Shown: positions 49,301 to 61,800 of the stretch, one piece after another
Layout: every line of letters begins with the position of its first letter
How positions within the stretch are numbered: the first letter of the stretch is position 1
DNA from: Agelas oroides
Lineage: Eukaryota; Porifera; Demospongiae; Agelasida; Agelasidae
NCBI GenBank assembly: GCA_949130485.1
Contig: OX422194.1
Span: 6,026,699 to 6,090,698, forward strand
Direction: 5' to 3'
Length of the DNA stretch: 64,000 nucleotides
Position numbers and translations under genes: made by a program
The notes under the pieces: generated by a model
Seen by the model: the letters and a program-made list of their open reading frames with translations, nothing else
Databases searched by the model: none
What the model was told of the DNA's origin: nothing

Positions 49301-50840
49301 TGTCATTAGTGTTGCTGGTGAGTCCTCGTTTTCTGATCTTAAAACCCTTTAAACTCTATAAATTTTTTTCACTTGAGACTACTTCTAGCAAATGCATGCC
49401 TTTAACGCACCATATCTGTCTGAGCTCTGACTCCAAAACTGAACCCAAGTGCACTTTCAGCCTTAATATGCAGATTCGTAACCTTAACCATGCCCACTCA
49501 TTAAGTTAATAACACTTTCCAGCCCATAGCACGAATGGCAATATTGTGAAGGAGGAACGTGTTGTGTATTGCGTGTCATATCGCCAATTGGGAAACAGCT
49601 ACAGACTTCTGGTAAGAAATATTAGAAAAAAATTGTAGTTCGCTTAGCATCAGTGGAGTTATGAAGCATACCACAAAAAGTACAGGCTGTAAGACAAACG
49701 TAAGTTTTCAGACCGGAAATCGCTACCTTCGGTATATTCTCAAGCTTATAGCTTGGCTGTTTCGTGTTTGTTCTTCTTGAAATTTGCAGCGTAATTAGAG
49801 CTTTCCTTTAGCTTCACGTAGCATTTTATTGCATCTTCGTCGCTTGTATAGTTTTCGAGATCGGTCGTGACTTACACGTCAACGTCCCCCGTGCGATAAA
49901 ATGCATGCTAGGCTACGTTAACTTCCGGTCAGGAAGTAGTTAATTTCAATTTAACTATGCGATATTAGCTTCCTGTGGGTGTAATGAATACAGTTACTAA
50001 TGCAGAAAGTTCGTAGTCTCGCGTGGCCACACCCCGTTCCACGGAACGGGGTGTGGCCACGCGAGACTAGAAAGTTCGTACTACACCGCTAACGTGAACG
50101 AGAAGACTGAAACAGGACCTTGTGTGGCCATGAGTACGGCGTCATTGGGCTGTAAAGGGTTAACGAGCAGGCAATAGTCAGCATCCTCAGTTGGCAAATA
50201 CCCGCTTAGAGCCCAAGCAGCCTTCCCTGCCAGAAATGAACCCCCCAAAAGGTGAGAGTAGCATTTTCTGGGCCTGTTCGTGTAGCCAAGCCTAGCAGCT
50301 GCCATGTGCATGTCATCCTGCGGGTGACCCCACCCACCTCCCCCTGTCCCACCCTTTCTGCTAATGCAGAACCTGTGCGCCACCGTGCAGACTCTATCTT
50401 TTCTGCGCAGTGCGCAGTGTGATGTAACCAGAAGTGCACTATAGTGTTTAAAGGGTTAAATTAGTTAATTAACTTAATTAATGCCATAAATGCTGTCACC
50501 TGTTCATACTTGCCTTGTAAGTAGTTGACGTATTCATGGCCGGTTTTAGGACTTTCTGATTGCTGTTCAGTATGAAGCATAAAATCTTGCAGATTGAAGA
50601 AATCAACTGGCTCTATTGTGAGCATTAGACCAGATACAAGCCCTTCTTGTGCTTTCTAAAATTATACAATTGCAAGCCACTTTCACTGAAGTAGGGAAGA
50701 ATGCACTCCCATACATGAGACTATGCCAGTATATATAATGTTTTCTATCTCCACAGGACCAGTATGTGTTCTGCCATGAAGTGCTGGCTGATTACATGGA
50801 TAAATTTGAAAACTATTCCAATTTTAAGGACATGATTTAA
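1058..50840 (+). CDS. Receptor-type protein tyrosine phosphatase, multi-exon gene, 5' end outside the window
   Basis: Single-pass receptor that should dephosphorylate phosphotyrosine inside the cell and sense ligands or neighbouring cells outside. Exons: 1058-1354, 3546-3866, 17018-17314, 22457-22783, 24059-24412, 27459-27743, 30235-30543, 30624-30971, 32400-32729, 33403-33657, 33853-33945, 35874-36146, 36802-36982, 37347-37558, 37798-37895, 37961-38048, 38351-38427, 38515-38551, 38856-38953, 39018-39149, 39213-39512, 39577-39726, 41312-41411, 43622-43695, 43790-44056, 47592-47755, 48393-48528, 50757-50840. All junctions are AG/GT and phases agree throughout. Extracellular exons are all phase 1-1; the membrane exon switches to phase 2. 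The order Ig, FN3, membrane helix, D1, D2 is that of RPTPs such as the LAR type. No signal peptide exon was found, so the start lies left of the window or was missed. The first four exons could instead belong to an upstream relative; the part from 24059 is much surer. Confidence 0.85.
1402..2053. repeat. Two-copy direct repeat, period about 374 bases
   Basis: The stretch beginning GCCAACAGCACAAATTTT at 1402 returns at 1776. Both copies share AAATGGGCCAG and ACATCAAGCATACCCC and end near CTTTGGCAGCTCTC. They lie in the intron after the first FN3 exon. Confidence 0.75.
2478..3038. mobile_element. MITE with terminal ACTCTGGTTA-TAAGC repeats
   Basis: Left end ACTCTGGTTATTAAGC (2480-2495) and right end GCTTATTAACCAGAGT (3021-3036) are inverted with one mismatch. 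Inside are several TTAG/TTATTAGGCGCA-type subterminal motifs. No coding capacity. Confidence 0.7.
3406..3483. mobile_element. Short hairpin element, TAACCTGTTACCTAGGCAAC arms
   Basis: Perfect 20-base inverted arms around a 38-base loop. Related termini occur at 29202-29247 and 37195-37262. It ends about 60 bases before the Ig exon at 3546. Confidence 0.75.
3546..3866 (+). CDS. Ig domain exon (copy a)
   Basis: One Ig-like domain in a phase 1-1 exon. Visible are the strand-B cysteine (YNLICTV), the strand-C tryptophan (VEWLNP) and the strand-F motif [10 protein letters not shown], with several N-glycosylation sequons (NNSN, NCST, NNTA). The acceptor is ttgtttag and the donor gtaaga. It is a near-copy of 22457-22783, from which it differs by a missing two-codon insertion and scattered substitutions. 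Confidence 0.85.
3976..4645. mobile_element. TIR element family GTGCGTGGGYGGAT, copy 1
   Basis: Starts TAGTGCGTGGGTGGAT and ends ATCCGCCTGTGCATTA (inverted). The interior matches 4851-5706 along its length, including GCAGCAGCAACGCACAACGA near the right end. Older than copy 2 by its worn ends. Confidence 0.7.
4655..4855. mobile_element. Palindromic foldback, ACCATAGTAAGG arms, copy 1
   Basis: Near-palindrome centred about 4785 (GTACCCCTCGTCTTCGGCTCAGGGTAC). Matches the foldback at 5706-5925, placed directly beyond the neighbouring TIR element. Confidence 0.6.
4851..5706. mobile_element. TIR element family GTGCGTGGGYGGAT, copy 2
   Basis: Perfect 18-base TIRs, TATGGTGCGTGGGCGGAT and its inverse ending at 5705, flanked by TA. 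Contains a three-copy tandem repeat of about 42 bases at 4918-5046 (GAGTATATTGCTGAGTCAGG). No recognisable transposase. Confidence 0.75.
5706..5925. mobile_element. Palindromic foldback, AACCATGGTAAGGAGGTGTA arms, copy 2
   Basis: Arms of about 90 bases: AACCATGGTAAGGAGGTGTA on the left pairs with TACACCTCCTTACCATGGTT on the right; the centre is GAGCCGCAGGCGAGG. Would fold into a long hairpin if transcribed. Confidence 0.75.
5926..7494. other. Intron, little recognised
   Basis: Apart from the possible element at 6165-6530, no splice-flanked Ig or FN3 module and no transposase motif was seen on either strand. Confidence 0.4.
6165..6530. mobile_element. Possible hAT-like nonautonomous element with a long G run
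   Basis: A run of about 24 G at 6467-6490 is followed by CATGCCCCCCCCTGACC and GGGTGCGACACC. This arrangement resembles hAT termini, but I could not pair two clean ends. Confidence 0.3.
7495..8375 (+). pseudogene. Decayed Tc1/mariner-like (IS630-type) transposase
   Basis: Spread over shifting frames but readable end to end: the N-terminal helix-turn-helix part ([12 protein letters not shown], then [10 protein letters not shown]), [20 protein letters not shown], the first catalytic Asp in [14 protein letters not shown], the second near [12 protein letters not shown] residues (written here with changes), and [16 protein letters not shown] toward the end. Several frameshifts and stops, so it is dead. 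It belongs to the same broad transposase family as 58199-59144 but is clearly not the same copy group. Confidence 0.7.
8376..9656. other. Intron, nothing firm
   Basis: A tract of CTCAACTCAGCTCGACTCAA near 8780-8815 is a short degenerate repeat. An open frame at 9220-9483 has no recognisable domain. Confidence 0.35.
9657..9870 (+). pseudogene. BED-type zinc-finger remnant of a hAT transposase
   Basis: One frame reads [15 protein letters not shown], then [24 protein letters not shown] and NHPEEH. This is the BED pattern (aromatic W and F, Cx2C, then the N-x-T-x-L-x-x-H helix and a second His). Two in-frame stops (TAG after W, TAA after YHL) break it. No catalytic part or ends were found nearby. 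Confidence 0.65.
9871..13859. other. Large intron segment without recognised genes
   Basis: Mostly unique-looking AT-rich sequence. GTGGGTGACTTTGCAT at 11528-11543 recurs at 44180 and, in worn form, near 63650, so a dispersed repeat is present. A 100-residue open frame at 12408-12710 has clustered cysteines ([13 protein letters not shown]) but no known domain. Confidence 0.35.
13860..14759 (-). CDS. Probable small Ig-domain membrane protein, antisense in a receptor intron
   Basis: Four exons read leftward: 14759-14637, 14498-14268, 14196-14051, 14004-13860, together about 214 residues. Exon 1 starts with ATG and a signal peptide ([18 protein letters not shown]) and ends at a gtgagg donor. 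Exon 2 has an Ig-like pattern: strand-B ERVLMC, strand-[11 protein letters not shown], strand-F DVWGIMC. Exon 3 carries one membrane helix ([20 protein letters not shown]) followed by basic residues and a gtgagt donor. Exon 4 is a basic tail ending KLPVIMNCL. Phases agree (0, 0, 2). Weak points: the acceptor of exon 2 has a poor pyrimidine tract, a second frame of exon 4 is also open for about 32 codons, and no homologue is recognised. It could be a decayed gene. Different architecture and strand from the host gene. Confidence 0.4.
14854..16895 (-). mobile_element. pogo/Tigger-like DNA transposon with decayed transposase
   Basis: Ends: TACCGTATAGCGCTAAATTT on the left and an inverted, partly matching TACCGTAGGACGGGAAATTT on the right, consistent with a TA target site and CCGTA termini. 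The transposase reads leftward: N-terminal DNA-binding part at 16348-16554 ([29 protein letters not shown]), then [19 protein letters not shown] and HMGFVKRR (16147-16338), the DDE domain with [12 protein letters not shown] and [13 protein letters not shown], and the C-terminus [20 protein letters not shown] (to 15420). Several frameshifts and a C run of 16 bases at 15941-15956 break it. About 0.5 kb between the left end and the gene is non-coding. Confidence 0.75.
17018..17314 (+). CDS. FN3 domain exon (copy b)
   Basis: Second copy of the FN3 exon, with the same length and phase as 1058-1354. The reading from the preceding Ig exon gives an in-frame Ile-Pro-Pro-Pro junction. [10 protein letters not shown] and [16 protein letters not shown] are intact. 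The exon begins about 120 bases after the right end of a pogo-like transposon (14854-16895). Confidence 0.85.
17433..17905. mobile_element. MITE, TAC-GTATTGT-C-GGGCAAGC termini
   Basis: Left TACTGTATTGTCCCGGGCAA and right TTGCCCAGCACAATACGTA are inverted with few mismatches. Subterminal CAACCGCCCACGCT also appears inverted. Non-coding. Confidence 0.65.
17906..19982. other. Intron with a GTTGTC-rich tract and an unidentified minus-strand ORF
   Basis: 18855-19105 is a degenerate array of GTTGTCAACATGG-like words on both strands. On the minus strand, 18711-18502 and 18514-18251 hold open frames, the first cysteine-rich ([15 protein letters not shown]) and the second ending at a gtgagt-like donor after CVVVDSK. 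I recognise no family and cannot tell whether these are exons. Confidence 0.3.
19983..20753. mobile_element. Foldback element with arms of about 160-200 bases
   Basis: AGAGTAAGTCAGCAATCATC on the left pairs with its near-inverse ending CTTACTCTAG on the right. Farther in, GGTACCTGGTGTACCAAAAA pairs with TTTTTGGTACACCAGGTACC, and ACGCTAGAAGCAATAAAATG pairs with CATTTTATCGCTTCTAGCGT. The central 350 bases have no recognised gene. Confidence 0.75.
20754..22456. other. Intron, one small AGTCTCG-family element and a C run
   Basis: The palindromic element lies at 21222-21289. A poly-C run is at 22176-22192. A 102-residue minus-strand open frame (22067-21759) has no recognised domain. Confidence 0.4.
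21222..21289. mobile_element. AGTCTCG-family mini element, worn copy
   Basis: Ends AATCTCGTTCTGAGACC and GGTCT-free right end AGTCTGGGAACGAGATT, inverted. Flanking 11-mers CTAACATTCCT and GTATGATTCCG match at 7 of 11 positions. Confidence 0.55.
22457..22783 (+). CDS. Ig domain exon (copy b)
   Basis: Second copy of the Ig exon: YNLTCTV, VEWLNP and [10 protein letters not shown] are all kept. A two-codon insertion sits in the first strand (ITIASDHDG against ITISHDG). Phase is 1-1. A palindromic foldback element starts only about 36 bases after its donor. Confidence 0.85.
22819..23089. mobile_element. Palindromic MITE, ATATGTGGCAGTCCCG family, copy 1
   Basis: Arms of over 100 bases: TATGTGGCAGTCCCGGGTGG on the left pairs with CCGGGACTGCCACATA on the right; GGCGGGGCTCATACACG pairs with CGTGTATGAGCCCCG at the centre. 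TA flanks fit a mariner-type target. Same family as 34240-34499. Confidence 0.8.
23090..24058. other. Intron before the Cys-Cys exon, nothing firm
   Basis: I looked here for a signal peptide exon that would make 24059 the second exon of a separate gene. The only candidate (23519, [19 protein letters not shown]) has an unconvincing hydrophobic core and no supporting context. Confidence 0.4.
24059..24412 (+). CDS. Cys-Cys Ig-like module exon
   Basis: Phase 1-1 exon of 118 codons. Pattern: G-VGFSLNG start, [12 protein letters not shown] with an adjacent cysteine pair, the [11 protein letters not shown] turn, a basic strand, then DGVYHCEV and IYIGVYSA. This is an Ig-like fold by spacing (Cys, Trp-Phe-Pro-x-Gly, GxYxC) with an extra cysteine next to the strand-B cysteine. 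The same module recurs at 61329-61655 directly after the signal peptide of the downstream paralogue, so here it may mark an internal repeat or the original N-terminus. I do not know a named family for it. Confidence 0.8.
25268..25456. mobile_element. Hairpin element, TGACTATA-GCTTTG termini
   Basis: TGACTATACAGCTTTGCAAG pairs with the right end CCAAAGCTATATAGTCA, and GCACAATTCATGCAAGG pairs with CCTTGCATGAATTGTGC farther in. Confidence 0.7.
25462..25540. mobile_element. Possible hAT-type terminus, AGAGATGCACCGATTATCGG
   Basis: AGAGATGCACCGATTATCGG and repeated ATCGGTATCGG-type words resemble ends of nonautonomous hAT elements in several animal genomes. No partner end was found. Confidence 0.3.
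25868..25982. mobile_element. Hairpin element, AGTCATATAACCCACCTAGA arms
   Basis: Arms of about 50 bases, nearly perfect: GATGGTTAAAACACTA on the left and TAGTGTTTTAACCATC on the right around a short centre. Confidence 0.75.
26639..27242. mobile_element. MITE with about 130-base TIRs
   Basis: AAGTCACAAAAAAGTTTTCC on the left returns inverted at 27222-27242, and the arms stay matched through GATGTAGGGATGG and GGCACAAGATG. The middle is CA-rich and repeats ACAC/CATAC words. One-arm fragments lie at 45295-45390 and 60217-60300. Confidence 0.8.
27459..27743 (+). CDS. Ig domain exon
   Basis: Compact Ig domain, phase 1-1. Key residues: [19 protein letters not shown] (Cys and Trp) and [12 protein letters not shown] (strand-F Cys). 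Donor gtgaga. It is strongly similar to 63213-63494 in the downstream paralogue, so the Cys-Cys module plus this Ig form a two-exon block shared by both genes. Confidence 0.85.
28465..28572. mobile_element. Small hairpin, AACACTTGTTGGACTGCAC arms
   Basis: Left AACACTTGTTGGACTGCAC pairs with right GTGCAGTCCGACAAGTGTT, one mismatch. The adjacent sequence to about 28800 holds another inverted pair (GGTGAGAAGGCAATATGGCT and GCCTTCTCAC) that also occurs at 36268-36300. Confidence 0.65.
28806..30234. other. Intron with hairpin fragments and an AT microsatellite
   Basis: 29197-29338 holds an AACCTGTTA/TAACAGGTT pair and a second hairpin, ATCTCTCTCTGGGGTGTGGT, both related to 37085-37265. A GGGGCGAGCCTGAG motif is at 29514 and its inverse at 30030-30060. 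(AT)n lies at 29988-30007. Confidence 0.5.
30235..30543 (+). CDS. Ig domain exon
   Basis: Phase 1-1 Ig domain: [18 protein letters not shown] and [10 protein letters not shown] are visible. The layout (spacing, WLGPN/WLNPN turn, LRTSHGGQY) matches the Ig exons at 3546 and 22457, so these are older paralogues of one another. Acceptor ttcttag, donor gtatgt. Confidence 0.85.
30624..30971 (+). CDS. Ig domain exon
   Basis: Phase 1-1 Ig domain beginning Pro-Pro-Pro-Thr, with LTLTCSIQL, a tryptophan in RTWSGPG and [10 protein letters not shown]. Only 80 bases of intron separate it from the previous Ig exon, by far the shortest intron in the extracellular half. Ends at a gtgagt donor. Confidence 0.85.
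31720..32105. mobile_element. MITE, CCATATAG-TAGTGGGAAATTTT termini
   Basis: Left CCATATAGCTAGTGGGAAAT and right ATTTCCCACTATATGG are inverted apart from a short gap. Interior rich in TTTTCGC and TTCGCGGTT words on both strands, as in pogo-type MITEs. Confidence 0.75.
32400..32729 (+). CDS. Ig domain exon
   Basis: Phase 1-1 Ig domain, last before the FN3 repeats: [19 protein letters not shown] and [11 protein letters not shown], with an additional cysteine pair (RACIS, EEHCK) that could form a second disulfide. Its donor gtgaat is followed 30 bases later by the left TTAA end of a MITE (32760-33389). Confidence 0.8.
32760..33389. mobile_element. TTAA-flanked MITE next to an exon acceptor
   Basis: TTAAGGGTGGTCGGAACTAA on the left and TTAGTTCCAACCACCCTTAA on the right (18 of 20 matched). 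TTAA at both outer edges fits a piggyBac-like or Kolobok-like target duplication. The right end is 13 bases from the FN3 acceptor AG. Confidence 0.8.
33403..33657 (+). CDS. FN3 domain, first part
   Basis: Phase 1-1 exon coding the N-terminal two thirds of an FN3 domain: [21 protein letters not shown] carries the Trp and Pro of strands B-C. The acceptor AG at 33401-33402 lies 13 bases from the TTAA end of a MITE, so the branch point must lie in the transposon. The rest of the fold is in the next exon. Confidence 0.75.
33853..33945 (+). CDS. FN3 domain, second part
   Basis: A 93-base phase 1-1 exon with the FN3 C-terminal signature [19 protein letters not shown] (strand F tyrosine and the N-x-x-G-x-G turn). 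It completes the domain begun at 33403. Donor gtgtgt. Confidence 0.8.
34240..34499. mobile_element. Palindromic MITE, ATATGTGGCAGTCCCG family, copy 2
   Basis: Second member of the family at 22819. Arms match each other more closely here: AAACTTCCGTTAAGGGCGGG pairs with CCCGCCCTTAACGGAAGTT. Confidence 0.8.
34500..35873. other. Intron, nothing firm
   Basis: AT-rich, no repeat family or exon recognised on either strand. Confidence 0.35.
35874..36146 (+). CDS. Membrane-proximal FN3 domain with a basic RRRR site
   Basis: FN3 domain in a phase 1-1 exon: [10 protein letters not shown], the MNVSWVPL tryptophan and the [15 protein letters not shown] end. Between strands C and E it has an Arg run, GSRRRRQVQ (RRRR at 36020-36031), which fits the furin consensus R-x-K/R-R. 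LAR-type RPTPs are cut by furin-like proteases at an Arg run near the membrane and remain as two joined subunits; the same processing is an inference here. Confidence 0.85.
36802..36982 (+). CDS. Stalk and transmembrane exon
   Basis: Opens with a Pro/Ser/Thr-rich stalk holding two near repeats ([20 protein letters not shown]), then one hydrophobic helix of about 23 residues ([20 protein letters not shown]) ending in aromatic and basic residues, GYFLYK. It enters at phase 1 and leaves at phase 2, the point where the exon structure changes from extracellular modules to the cytoplasmic part. Confidence 0.9.
37085..37265. mobile_element. Double hairpin element
   Basis: First hairpin: TAATAGTTAAATCCCTCCCT pairs with AGGGAGGGATTTAACTATTA, and TGGTGTCGGGTG pairs with TGACACCA. 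Second: TAACCTGTTACTTAGGCAAC pairs with TGCCTAGGTAACGGGTTA. Both hairpins have relatives at 29197-29338, always side by side. Confidence 0.75.
37347..37558 (+). CDS. Cytoplasmic juxtamembrane exon
   Basis: Phase 2-1 exon. Product is charged and probably flexible: a tyrosine in EMYELTENG, a basic patch [10 protein letters not shown], then an acidic run [12 protein letters not shown] and a Pro-rich end. No fold recognised. The YELT tyrosine could be a phosphorylation site; that is inference. Confidence 0.8.
37798..37895 (+). CDS. Exon leading into phosphatase domain D1
   Basis: Codes [17 protein letters not shown] followed by NRGFESEYQ. This matches the helix-turn-helix at the start of RPTP D1 domains (I-x-x-x-x-F-x-x-H-V-x-x-M/L-H-A, then F-x-x-E-Y). 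Donor gtatgg, phase 0 at its end. Confidence 0.85.
37961..38048 (+). CDS. D1 exon with the KNRF substrate-recognition motif
   Basis: Contains [11 protein letters not shown]; the usual motif is NxxKNRY, whose aromatic residue stacks on phosphotyrosine. Phe replaces Tyr, a mild change. The last codon (Tyr) is split with the next exon. Confidence 0.85.
38351..38427 (+). CDS. D1 exon, DYINASFVD
   Basis: Short exon with DFSRVKL and the strongly conserved DYINASFVD stretch of classical phosphatases. Phase 1 in, phase 0 out. Confidence 0.85.
38515..38551 (+). CDS. D1 micro-exon, YIASQG
   Basis: A 37-base exon coding [12 protein letters not shown] plus the first base of Gly. It continues the family motif YIA(S/T)QGP. 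Too short to be seen as an ORF, but phase and content fit both neighbours. Confidence 0.85.
38856..38953 (+). CDS. D1 exon, DFWRMIWE
   Basis: Codes [18 protein letters not shown] and [12 protein letters not shown], the classical DFWxMxWE and IVMLT motifs. The same DFWRMIWE occurs in the D2 exon at 43790. Confidence 0.85.
39018..39149 (+). CDS. D1 exon, KCEQYW
   Basis: Begins [10 protein letters not shown] (family KCxxYWP; Pro replaced by Gly) and runs through the central beta sheet to FTVES. 44 codons, phase 0-0. Confidence 0.8.
39213..39512 (+). CDS. D1 catalytic exon: WPD loop and [10 protein letters not shown]
   Basis: A 100-codon exon with all catalytic elements: [13 protein letters not shown] (WPD loop, general acid Asp), the signature loop [10 protein letters not shown] at 39369-39398 with nucleophile Cys and phosphate-binding Arg, and the Q loop VQSQ at its end. 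D1 should therefore be an active tyrosine phosphatase. Phase 0-0. Confidence 0.95.
39577..39726 (+). CDS. End of D1 and D1-D2 linker exon
   Basis: Codes [19 protein letters not shown], the last helix of D1, then a basic linker [18 protein letters not shown] leading to D2. 50 codons, phase 0-0. The following intron carries a 1.4 kb foldback element. Confidence 0.85.
39795..41190. mobile_element. 1.4 kb foldback element in the D1-D2 intron
   Basis: Left arm about 39970-40382, right arm about 40742-41175, inverted over more than 350 bases: TGCGAGCAGCCTTCCATTGATGG-type sequence left, and its complement near 41005-41035. The outermost motif GTGGGGCGAGCCTGAGCAAG (39796) is inverted at 41163-41190. 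The loop of about 360 bases holds no gene. GGGGCGAGCC motifs at 130, 29514, 30040, 48625 and 60160 show that the terminus is dispersed through the window. Confidence 0.75.
41312..41411 (+). CDS. D2 first exon, KNRYPDKLP
   Basis: Starts [18 protein letters not shown] and ends [10 protein letters not shown]. The NxxKNRY motif is better kept in D2 than in D1. Exon ends within the following Tyr codon. Confidence 0.85.
41413..43110. other. Intron, nothing firm except a C run
   Basis: Poly-C at 41977-41990. A GTACGTATGTACATACGCAC palindrome lies near 42124-42143. No exon-like module. Confidence 0.35.
43115..43412. repeat. 23-base minisatellite, about 12 copies
   Basis: Unit GAGTCCACAAGCATGTAGAAA plus CT. 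The inner copies are identical; edges diverge. Because 23 is not a multiple of 3, long repetitive open frames appear on the minus strand, but these are not genes. Confidence 0.95.
43622..43695 (+). CDS. D2 exon, EYINASFVN
   Basis: Codes [14 protein letters not shown] and EYINASFVN, parallel to the D1 exon at 38351 in length and phase, showing that D1 and D2 arose by duplication with introns kept. Confidence 0.85.
43790..44056 (+). CDS. D2 exon, YIATQAP to DNK
   Basis: 89 codons, phase 0-0: [20 protein letters not shown], then [11 protein letters not shown] and YPYWP. It merges what in D1 are three exons. Donor gtttgt is weak, but the frame runs into DEGSQSK of the next exon. Confidence 0.85.
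44402..44778. mobile_element. MITE, TACCGTATTTCTTCGA termini
   Basis: Perfect 16-base TIRs with TA at the outer edge. Internal repeats of CGCCCTCGAATAGTAGCCGC. This type of element is common in marine invertebrate genomes. Confidence 0.85.
45295..45390. mobile_element. Fragment of the 26639 MITE family
   Basis: Carries one arm only, ACAAGTCACAAAAAAGTTTT to GGAACAACACCAC. Confidence 0.7.
45475..45985 (-). pseudogene. LINE reverse transcriptase C-terminal fragment
   Basis: Reads [34 protein letters not shown] and [10 protein letters not shown] in one frame (45968-45651), then [13 protein letters not shown] and [17 protein letters not shown] in another. This is the region after the palm of CR1/Jockey-type LINE reverse transcriptases. 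A frameshift near 45660 separates the two. The rest of the LINE is absent, as expected for a 5'-truncated copy. Confidence 0.8.
46270..46319. mobile_element. AGTCTCG-family mini element
   Basis: AGTCTCGCTTCCAGACCAA and its near-inverse ending GGGAACGAGACT around CATGG. The flanks share GTGTAC, but not in perfect register with an 11-base duplication. Confidence 0.65.
46536..46768. repeat. Dispersed repeat, copy 1 (inverse of 63685-63902)
   Basis: Shares AAAATGGCACTTTCGCTACC, TGTGGTGAAGTTATACGGCT and GCGCCATCCCTACATAGAGA with the copy at the right edge in the other orientation. Confidence 0.75.
46909..47370. mobile_element. MITE, GCGCACATTATGC termini
   Basis: Left AGGCATGCGCACATTATGC and right GCATAATGTGCGGGAGCCT are inverted with few changes. 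GCATAAT recurs many times inside. Confidence 0.7.
47592..47755 (+). CDS. D2 exon with WPE loop
   Basis: Codes [16 protein letters not shown]: the general-acid Asp of the WPD loop is Glu here, as in many D2 domains. Ends ITVMC plus two bases of the next codon, placing the pocket cysteine at the exon edge. Confidence 0.85.
48347..48373. repeat. CA microsatellite
   Basis: Uninterrupted (CA)n, 12-13 units, about 20 bases before the acceptor of the D2 pocket exon. Confidence 0.9.
48393..48528 (+). CDS. D2 exon with altered pocket MCNDGVGRTG
   Basis: Completes the D2 signature loop as MCNDGVGRTG: the Cys and Arg remain, but the His before the Cys is Met and the Ser-Ala after it is Asn-Asp. Together with WPE this suggests a regulatory domain with little or no catalysis. 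Ends [10 protein letters not shown]. The intron before it closes with a CA microsatellite. Confidence 0.85.
48529..50756. other. Last intron, repeats only
   Basis: A GGTGAGCCTGAGCAAG motif of the foldback family lies at 48625-48668. 49527-49611 resembles an exon (AG and GT edges) but its 89-base length would break the frame between the flanking phosphatase exons. The perfect palindromic element 50015-50068 is the notable feature. Confidence 0.5.
50015..50068. mobile_element. AGTCTCG-family mini element, perfect palindrome with perfect target duplication
   Basis: 54 bases: AGTCTCGCGTGGCCACACCC to its exact inverse, arms of 26 bases around a 2-base centre. Flanked on both sides by AGAAAGTTCGT (11 of 11). 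Confidence 0.85.
50757..50840 (+). CDS. Last exon, D2 C-terminus
   Basis: Codes [18 protein letters not shown] and a short tail ending KDMI, stop TAA at 50838-50840. QYVF with the following helix is the standard end of a phosphatase domain, so there is almost no C-terminal tail. Confidence 0.9.
   Translation, partial: DQYVFCHEVLADYMDKFENYSNFKDMI

Positions 50841-61800: not shown

Follow-up and report, generated by a model that had tools for sequence, protein, structure and literature searches.

Short transposon-like elements with TAGYCTCG...CGAGRCTA ends and 9-base target duplications are abundant in the genome of Agelas oroides

Elements that begin with TAGYCTCG and finish with CGAGRCTA are real transposon-like elements, abundant in the genome of the sponge Agelas oroides, and the target duplication that flanks them is 9 bases long, not 11 as the preliminary description of this DNA had proposed. 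The outer T and A at their two ends are part of the element. These very short, hairpin-like elements have little in common beyond the last eight bases at either end.

Four copies with these ends lie in the window, that is, the whole 64-kb stretch of DNA analysed. A palindromic mini-element of 56 bp (50014..50069, no strand assigned) has the ends TAGTCTCG/CGAGACTA, and on both sides of it stands GAAAGTTCG, a 9/9 repeat (50005-50013 and 50070-50078). The second copy, 320 bp long and on the plus strand (57335..57654), was assigned to family 2; it begins with TAGTCTCGTGCCCCGCCCGC and is also set between 9/9 repeats, GTCAGTACA (57326-57334 and 57655-57663). Another palindromic mini-element, of only 48 bp (59193..59240, no strand assigned), is flanked by the 9/9 repeat GACTTCCTG at 59184-59192 and 59241-59249. 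The longest copy, a plus-strand element of 576 bp (59390..59965), has arms some 80 bp long that are inverted relative to each other (59389-59471 versus 59891-59966), and flanks matching at 8/9 positions, CACATGAGG/CACAGGAGG (59381-59389 and 59966-59974). The coordinates, ends and flanking repeats described before are as claimed, except for the duplication length and for the right end at 59964, which reads CGAGGCT, one base off CGAGACT, within the terminus CGAGGCTA. The palindromic nature of the smallest copies is confirmed by the 56-bp and 48-bp elements.

Could such pairs of ends arise by chance? In 300 dinucleotide shuffles of the window there were no end pairs with flanks matching at 8/9 or better, versus four in the real window, and chance is therefore excluded for them. 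A scan made de novo, looking for direct repeats around inverted ends, recovered all four elements, and the only repeats of 11 bases in its output belong to three of them. Insertion itself is confirmed by an empty site: a 323-bp relative of the 320-bp element, flanked by GGGTCAAAG, is present at loci L057 and L120, whereas L056 does not have it. The preliminary description was right about the fixed ends and the presence of target duplications.

Two other places in the window deserve mention. A mini-element of 52 bp (46269..46320, no strand assigned), missed in the preliminary description, lies within an amplified carrier repeat that spans at least 46170-46420; we recognised this carrier by eye in the printed stretches of L009, L022, L026 and L035. 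The site at 21221..21290 (no strand assigned), TAATCTCG...CGAGATTG, had been listed as keeping 7/11 of its flanking repeat. That count is correct in the register used then and becomes 7/9 in ours; the site is at best a decayed copy, and we left it out of the count of true copies.

Across the 259-Mb genome, the exact ends occur 26-56 bp apart at 918 places and 57-87 bp apart at 581 places, while the reversed pattern gave 4 and 1, respectively. The left end of the family 2 element has 761 genome matches at no more than two mismatches, and its reversed control has none.

The length of the duplication was evaluated on 50 mini-elements from elsewhere in the genome. A 9-base duplication with at most one mismatch was found in 18 of them (0.08 expected), a 10-base one in a single element, and an 11-base one, with T and A counted to the element, in none of the 50; at two mismatches, 11-base repeats appeared in two. 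The odd 11-base length emphasised earlier is therefore not a property of these elements. The 11/11 counts arose because the outer T/A was omitted from the element and because, in two of the four window copies, an A happens to precede the left repeat and a T to follow the right one. Such an A...T pair surrounds the 9-base repeat in only 2 of the 18 genome copies, and only those two would read as 11 in the earlier register. Variable lengths, previously regarded as evidence against the proposal, are seen to a weak degree: nine is dominant, and duplications of ten occur in L008 and L053.

Mutator-like elements had been named, correctly, as the closest kind. Nine bases is a usual duplication length for Mutator elements in the excerpted parts of papers on them (PMC6446971, PMC3169594, PMC5225508). 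The long transposase-encoding copy suggested as a search target was not found with these ends at any locus examined, which leaves the Mutator superfamily as a candidate assignment; no coding element bounded by these ends was seen among the Mutator-type loci examined, many of which had flanks too short to reach the element ends. One lead is a Mutator-like gene that carries an OTU domain, a candidate connection to the elements: in four of the six copies examined, the end motif is matched three to five times directly before its ATG. By structure, the elements are non-autonomous foldback elements or MITEs of Mutator type, and they appear to be pared-down relatives of the Mutator and foldback transposons.

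The four elements with ends TAGYCTCG...CGAGRCTA could be read directly in the window sequence, where the preliminary description had placed them, with their shared ends and flanking repeats. Counted with the outer T and A, they measure 56 bp (50014-50069), 320 bp (57335-57654), 48 bp (59193-59240) and 576 bp (59390-59965); the 9-base repeats at their flanks match at 9/9 positions in the first three and at 8/9 in the last. All four were recovered when the window was scanned for 12-base inverted ends (one mismatch) accompanied by direct repeats of 8-11 bases, and 11-base repeats appeared in the resulting list only at three of them. 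When end pairs no more than 3 kb apart with flanks matching at 8/9 or better were counted, the window gave four and 300 dinucleotide shuffles gave none. The window also holds frames for fibronectin III and protein tyrosine phosphatase domains, as would suit an animal genome, and tandem repeats at 43117-43412 and 53855-54219 (units of 23 and 62 bp). Scans of it with Rfam (gathering scores) and for tRNA returned nothing. A DDE_3 transposase-like frame, which we take to be of the Tc1/mariner kind, lies between the second and third element (58267-58794). The 9-base duplications rule it out as the server of the elements and likewise separate them from Tc1/mariner, with its TA duplication.

How many such elements does the genome contain? 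In the assembly searched (259.3 Mb, 141 contigs), where the window lies at C12:6026699-6090698, the paired-end pattern TAGTCTCGN{10,40}CGAGACTA was found 918 times and the reversed pattern 4 times; at N{41,71} spacing the same ends occur at 581 places against 1. These searches required exact ends, so that the apparent fixity of the ends is partly by construction; the variant ends TAGCCTCG and CGAGGCTA delimit other elements. The word TAGTCTCG was counted 24,041 times on both strands, tandem arrays included, against 6,238 for its reverse. The left end of family 2, to which the 320-bp window element belongs, has 761 genome matches at no more than two mismatches, and its control has none. The elements are short, non-coding and present in many copies, with inverted ends and a target duplication, as is typical of MITEs. 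Tandem arrays whose unit contains either a single element end or a short element in full were seen at C1:524560-525060 (L109; array C1:524626-524985, period about 32 bp), C1:1042940-1043360 (L110; period 33-35 bp) and C4:8429150-8429450 (L112; period 82 bp).

A scan of IMG/VR for TAGTCTCGTTCCCAGAC gave 0 matches. In prokaryote genomes the hits were mainly to a palindromic repeat of cyanobacteria, GCGTTCCCAGGC..GAGCCTGGGAACGAGGC, which contains the 19-mer GAGCCTGGGAACGAGGCTA found at the end of some larger elements. This repeat is present in Microseira wollei, Oscillatoria, Hormoscilla and others (L124-L141, the prokaryote contigs), and at 12/13 Microseira places the direct repeat GGCTAATGGC stands on both sides; two Gemmatimonadetes MAG contigs also match. 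The prokaryotic matches are probably convergence.

The length of the target duplication was tallied by reading the flanks of 50 of the 918 places, the first along contig 1, which hold short palindromic copies (minis). A 9-base repeat with at most one mismatch flanks 18 of the 50, exactly in 13, where crossed flanks predict 0.08. At the same tolerance a 10-base repeat was found in one mini, an 11-base repeat in none and, in the 9-base register, an 8-base repeat in none. Repeats with two mismatches were of 9 bases in seven minis, of 10 bases in one and of 11 bases in two. Inverted flanks were seen in 2/50, and the target repeat is absent from 19/50, partly because nine minis apparently lie within carrier repeats. 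A second tally, over 245 kb of sequence, was restricted to end pairs whose flanks match, and tried length 9 first; its 25 rows represent 23 distinct elements, with a duplication of 9 bases in 21 and of 10 in 2. The tabulation over genomic copies that the preliminary description had called for therefore has 9 as the dominant length, 10 as a rare one and, at up to one mismatch, no 11. The 11-base duplications which that description reported came from a register leaving the outer T and A out of the element. An A...T pair stands outside the 9-base repeat in only 2/18 minis, and only these would read as 11 in that register; since no A...T rule holds there, the reported 11 is 9 plus a coincidence. 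The ten-base register (AGTCTCG...CGAGACTA) is not general, T following the right repeat in 4/18 minis only.

Insertion is shown by an empty site, seen on comparing two copies of one Mutator-gene repeat. The first (L056) has a single GGGTCAAAG, and the second (L057, continued in L120) has a 323-bp family-2 element between two GGGTCAAAG. The 831-bp element of locus L062 is missing from L065, where the junction differs by a small indel.

Inward of the eight outermost bases the sequence differs among copies, yet the arms match within a copy. At positions 9-20 the identity of the arms amounts to 0.80 within copies and 0.37 between them (39 copies of at least 44 bp), with full agreement at positions 9-13 in only 16/39, and by eye the stretch just inside the ends is often CCAGAC-like. 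Sizes cluster, 30 of the 50 minis measuring 47-52 bp where 26-56 bp was allowed; of the copies measuring 52 bp, twelve in all, eight seem to lie inside the carrier repeat. Exact 9-base repeats flank copies as short as 29, 36, 36 and 37 bp (L005, L027, L100 and L107). The arms of minis are short (in the window, 18 bp in one mini and 27 bp in the other), and larger copies have long terminal inverted repeats, about 80 bp in the window element 59390-59965 and about 380 bp in that of L062. The latter is a foldback element, its 831 bp consisting largely of two inverted arms that are 97% alike. The L062 arm was also used to look for a coding copy whose arms lie far apart; the 40 of 1010 candidates that were scored gave only foldback or one-armed copies. 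Among these 40, 18 places had no listed partner arm, and 17 of them lack a full second arm, L083 being the only one to have it. Several one-armed copies end just beyond the loop. In several (L076-L093) a full arm and loop are followed by unrelated DNA from slightly differing points.

Nine of the 50 minis (L009, L022, L024, L026, L033, L035, L097, L099 and L103) apparently lie in one amplified carrier repeat, which also includes the window mini 46269-46320; membership was judged by eye from the flanks, for L097, L099 and L103 on 30 bases. The arms of carrier-repeat minis differ at unmatched places, with a mean likeness of 0.79 (10 copies). In minis with target repeats the likeness is 0.78 (12 copies; 0.84 in the 8 exact ones), so the comparison is hardly informative as to whether the two arms stay alike once an element has inserted.

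With their ends, 9-base duplications, empty site, number in the genome and symmetric arms, the elements are very probably MITE/foldback-type DNA transposons, non-autonomous and of the cut-and-paste kind, moved by a trans-acting transposase with a 9-base stagger. This enzyme would recognise the outer TAGYCTCG, probably with some bases just inside, cut both ends and join them to the target with the 9-base stagger, and gap repair would then leave a duplication of 9, rarely 10, bases. That the enzyme is a DDE transposase is our inference, and what points to the Mutator type is a stagger of 9/10 bases, arms that are long or palindromic, and a genome rich in Mutator genes (at least 119 PF10551 and at least 44 PF20700 matches). 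By structure the elements work like a Mutator/foldback MITE and are a candidate member of that group. The earlier suggestion that Mutator-like elements are the closest kind agrees with the 9/10-base duplications and the arms; it finds no counterpart in the examined loci in the form of a coding copy with these ends.

The closest described system that we have seen is Tm1 of root-knot nematodes, by duplication length, short outer motif and variable arms. This Mutator/Foldback group has duplications of 8-10 bp, mostly 9, and, like the elements here, comprises non-autonomous, MITE-like copies with inverted arms that vary in length, an outer motif that is short and fixed (7 bp in Tm1, 8 here) and no clear target consensus (PMC3169594). 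However, Tm1 has a transposase-encoding member, its arms consist of tandem repeats and its outer motifs are unlike at the two ends (PMC3169594); no coding copy was found here in the examined loci, and the smallest copies here have 29-56 bp. Mutator elements make duplications of 8-11 bp, often 9, and often have long inverted ends (PMC6446971; its comparison set takes Rehavkus as outgroup). The 9, rarely 10, bases found here lie in that range and the larger copies have long arms, but little beyond the last 8 bp is common to all copies, and the examined loci gave no transposase with these ends. Muta1 of Aedes aegypti, a coding element of 3198 bp with 145-bp arms, is reported to have duplications of 8 or 9 bp with no apparent sequence preference, as here (PMC5225508).

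Mutator-type genes with a visible end use ends other than the studied ones. For example, the gene in L068 has the ends GCGAATTTT... and its own 9/9 repeats. No coding element bounded by the studied ends was present in 30 PF10551 loci and 6 PF20700 loci with 1.5-kb flanks, which may fall short, nor in four PF10551 loci with flanks of about 8 kb. Six further PF20700-like copies are also without these bounding ends (L114 over 7.5 kb, the others in the upstream part only), and no autonomous copy was found among the PF10551 and PF20700 loci. Two other structures were seen. A 2.6-kb element at L069:47-2652 has inverted ends GAATCTCG..., identical in their first 75 bases, and a 9/9 repeat CAGTACGGT, with no ATG/GTG/TTG frame of at least 120 aa inside, and L070:1327-3978 combines PF20700 and a YqaJ-like recombinase domain in a single open frame.

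Which enzyme, then, might serve the elements? Another DDE superfamily with 8-10-base staggers, Merlin or a prokaryote-like IS4/IS256 type, could do so. With regard to Merlin, hAT and P, none of the 50 minis has an 8-base repeat at up to one mismatch in the 9-base register. The examined loci, which gave no Mutator gene bearing these ends, are consistent with that reading, but 9 bases with an occasional 10 and foldback arms match the Mutator/foldback Tm1 (PMC3169594), and we regard another superfamily as rather unlikely. Within the Mutator type, the best lead is L114, a candidate only. As a PF20700-like Mutator-superfamily gene with an OTU domain, its product would bind the end motif both in its own promoter and at the small elements, a proposal that we put forward tentatively and with some doubt. 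Its open frame encodes 1068 aa from an ATG at 3155, with the OTU domain; the genome search gave a PF20700 similarity of 45 bits, but a scan of the whole protein reported OTU only, without PF20700. The 140 bp preceding the ATG contain five TAGTCTCGTTCCCAGAC matches (1-5 mismatches) in L114 and in the copies L115 and L118, and three in L119; such sites are absent upstream in L116 and L117. When 42 sources were compared (window, L036-L075, L114), three matches at no more than 4 mismatches inside 150 bp occurred in L114 alone. In the comparison of L118 with L119, agreement is 71/76 in the motif columns and 37/56 in the spacers (p = 7e-5), but 501/555 in the 5' part, no different from the motifs (p = 0.53). 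Moreover, the four motif-bearing copies count as one event, and the cluster may derive from two old mini-elements that had inserted at this spot ahead of the family's spread. L114-type copies are homologous from GTAGCACGG on, not from TAGTCTCG, and their right end was not found, so nothing marks L114 as the autonomous copy of the elements. Taken as a whole, the following reading is unlikely: an animal genome with near-perfect hairpins of about 30-55 bp as transposition substrates, in which hardly more than the eight outer bases are fixed and the remaining arm sequence may vary if both arms match, moved in trans by a Mutator/OTU transposase that binds its own promoter's motif as well.

The palindromes might also never have transposed at their small size, being remnants formed after insertion or hairpins that fold-back copying produced from a single end. 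This would fit the minis L031, L007 and L111, which stand at the centre of inverted, not direct, flanking DNA (20 bp, roughly 75 bp with a shift, and at least 25 bp, respectively), an arrangement unaccounted for by simple insertion. The L111 flanks match GGGAGGCTGTCTTTTCACCCAATCC, present at the edge of a Mutator-gene repeat in L046/L055. The 17/18 fetched L062-family places without a full second arm point the same way, and L005, of 29 bp, could be a later deletion. However, the sizes of minis cluster at 47-52 bp, and like-armed minis have different exact duplications (L003, L013, L021 and L094). In family 2, whose left and right ends are unlike (window 57335-57654), the exact left-left palindrome, a form in keeping with fold-back copying, occurs once in the genome (L111), against at least seven short left-right forms among the matches listed, by eye. 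We consider the remnant or fold-back origin improbable, and the family-2 counts make loss of the middle the likelier main route in that family. By extension from this one family, the very small palindromes may mainly derive from longer elements that lost their middle, almost down to the two arms. That all this is a common AGTCTCG word with accidental flank matches among ordinary repeats is hardly conceivable in view of the paired-end counts, the 9-base tally, the empty site and the shuffles.

None of four typical end words was found in the paper texts searched, and among the papers listed by topic searches no title or displayed abstract describes such elements. Palindromes of 36-55 bp that carry exact 9-base duplications would, if they moved at their present size, count as very small substrates for transposition, and one could test on them directly how little end sequence and spacing a Mutator-type enzyme requires. 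The many variants of the arms found in nature, each next to an 8-base end that hardly changes, would serve as a ready-made mutagenesis series.
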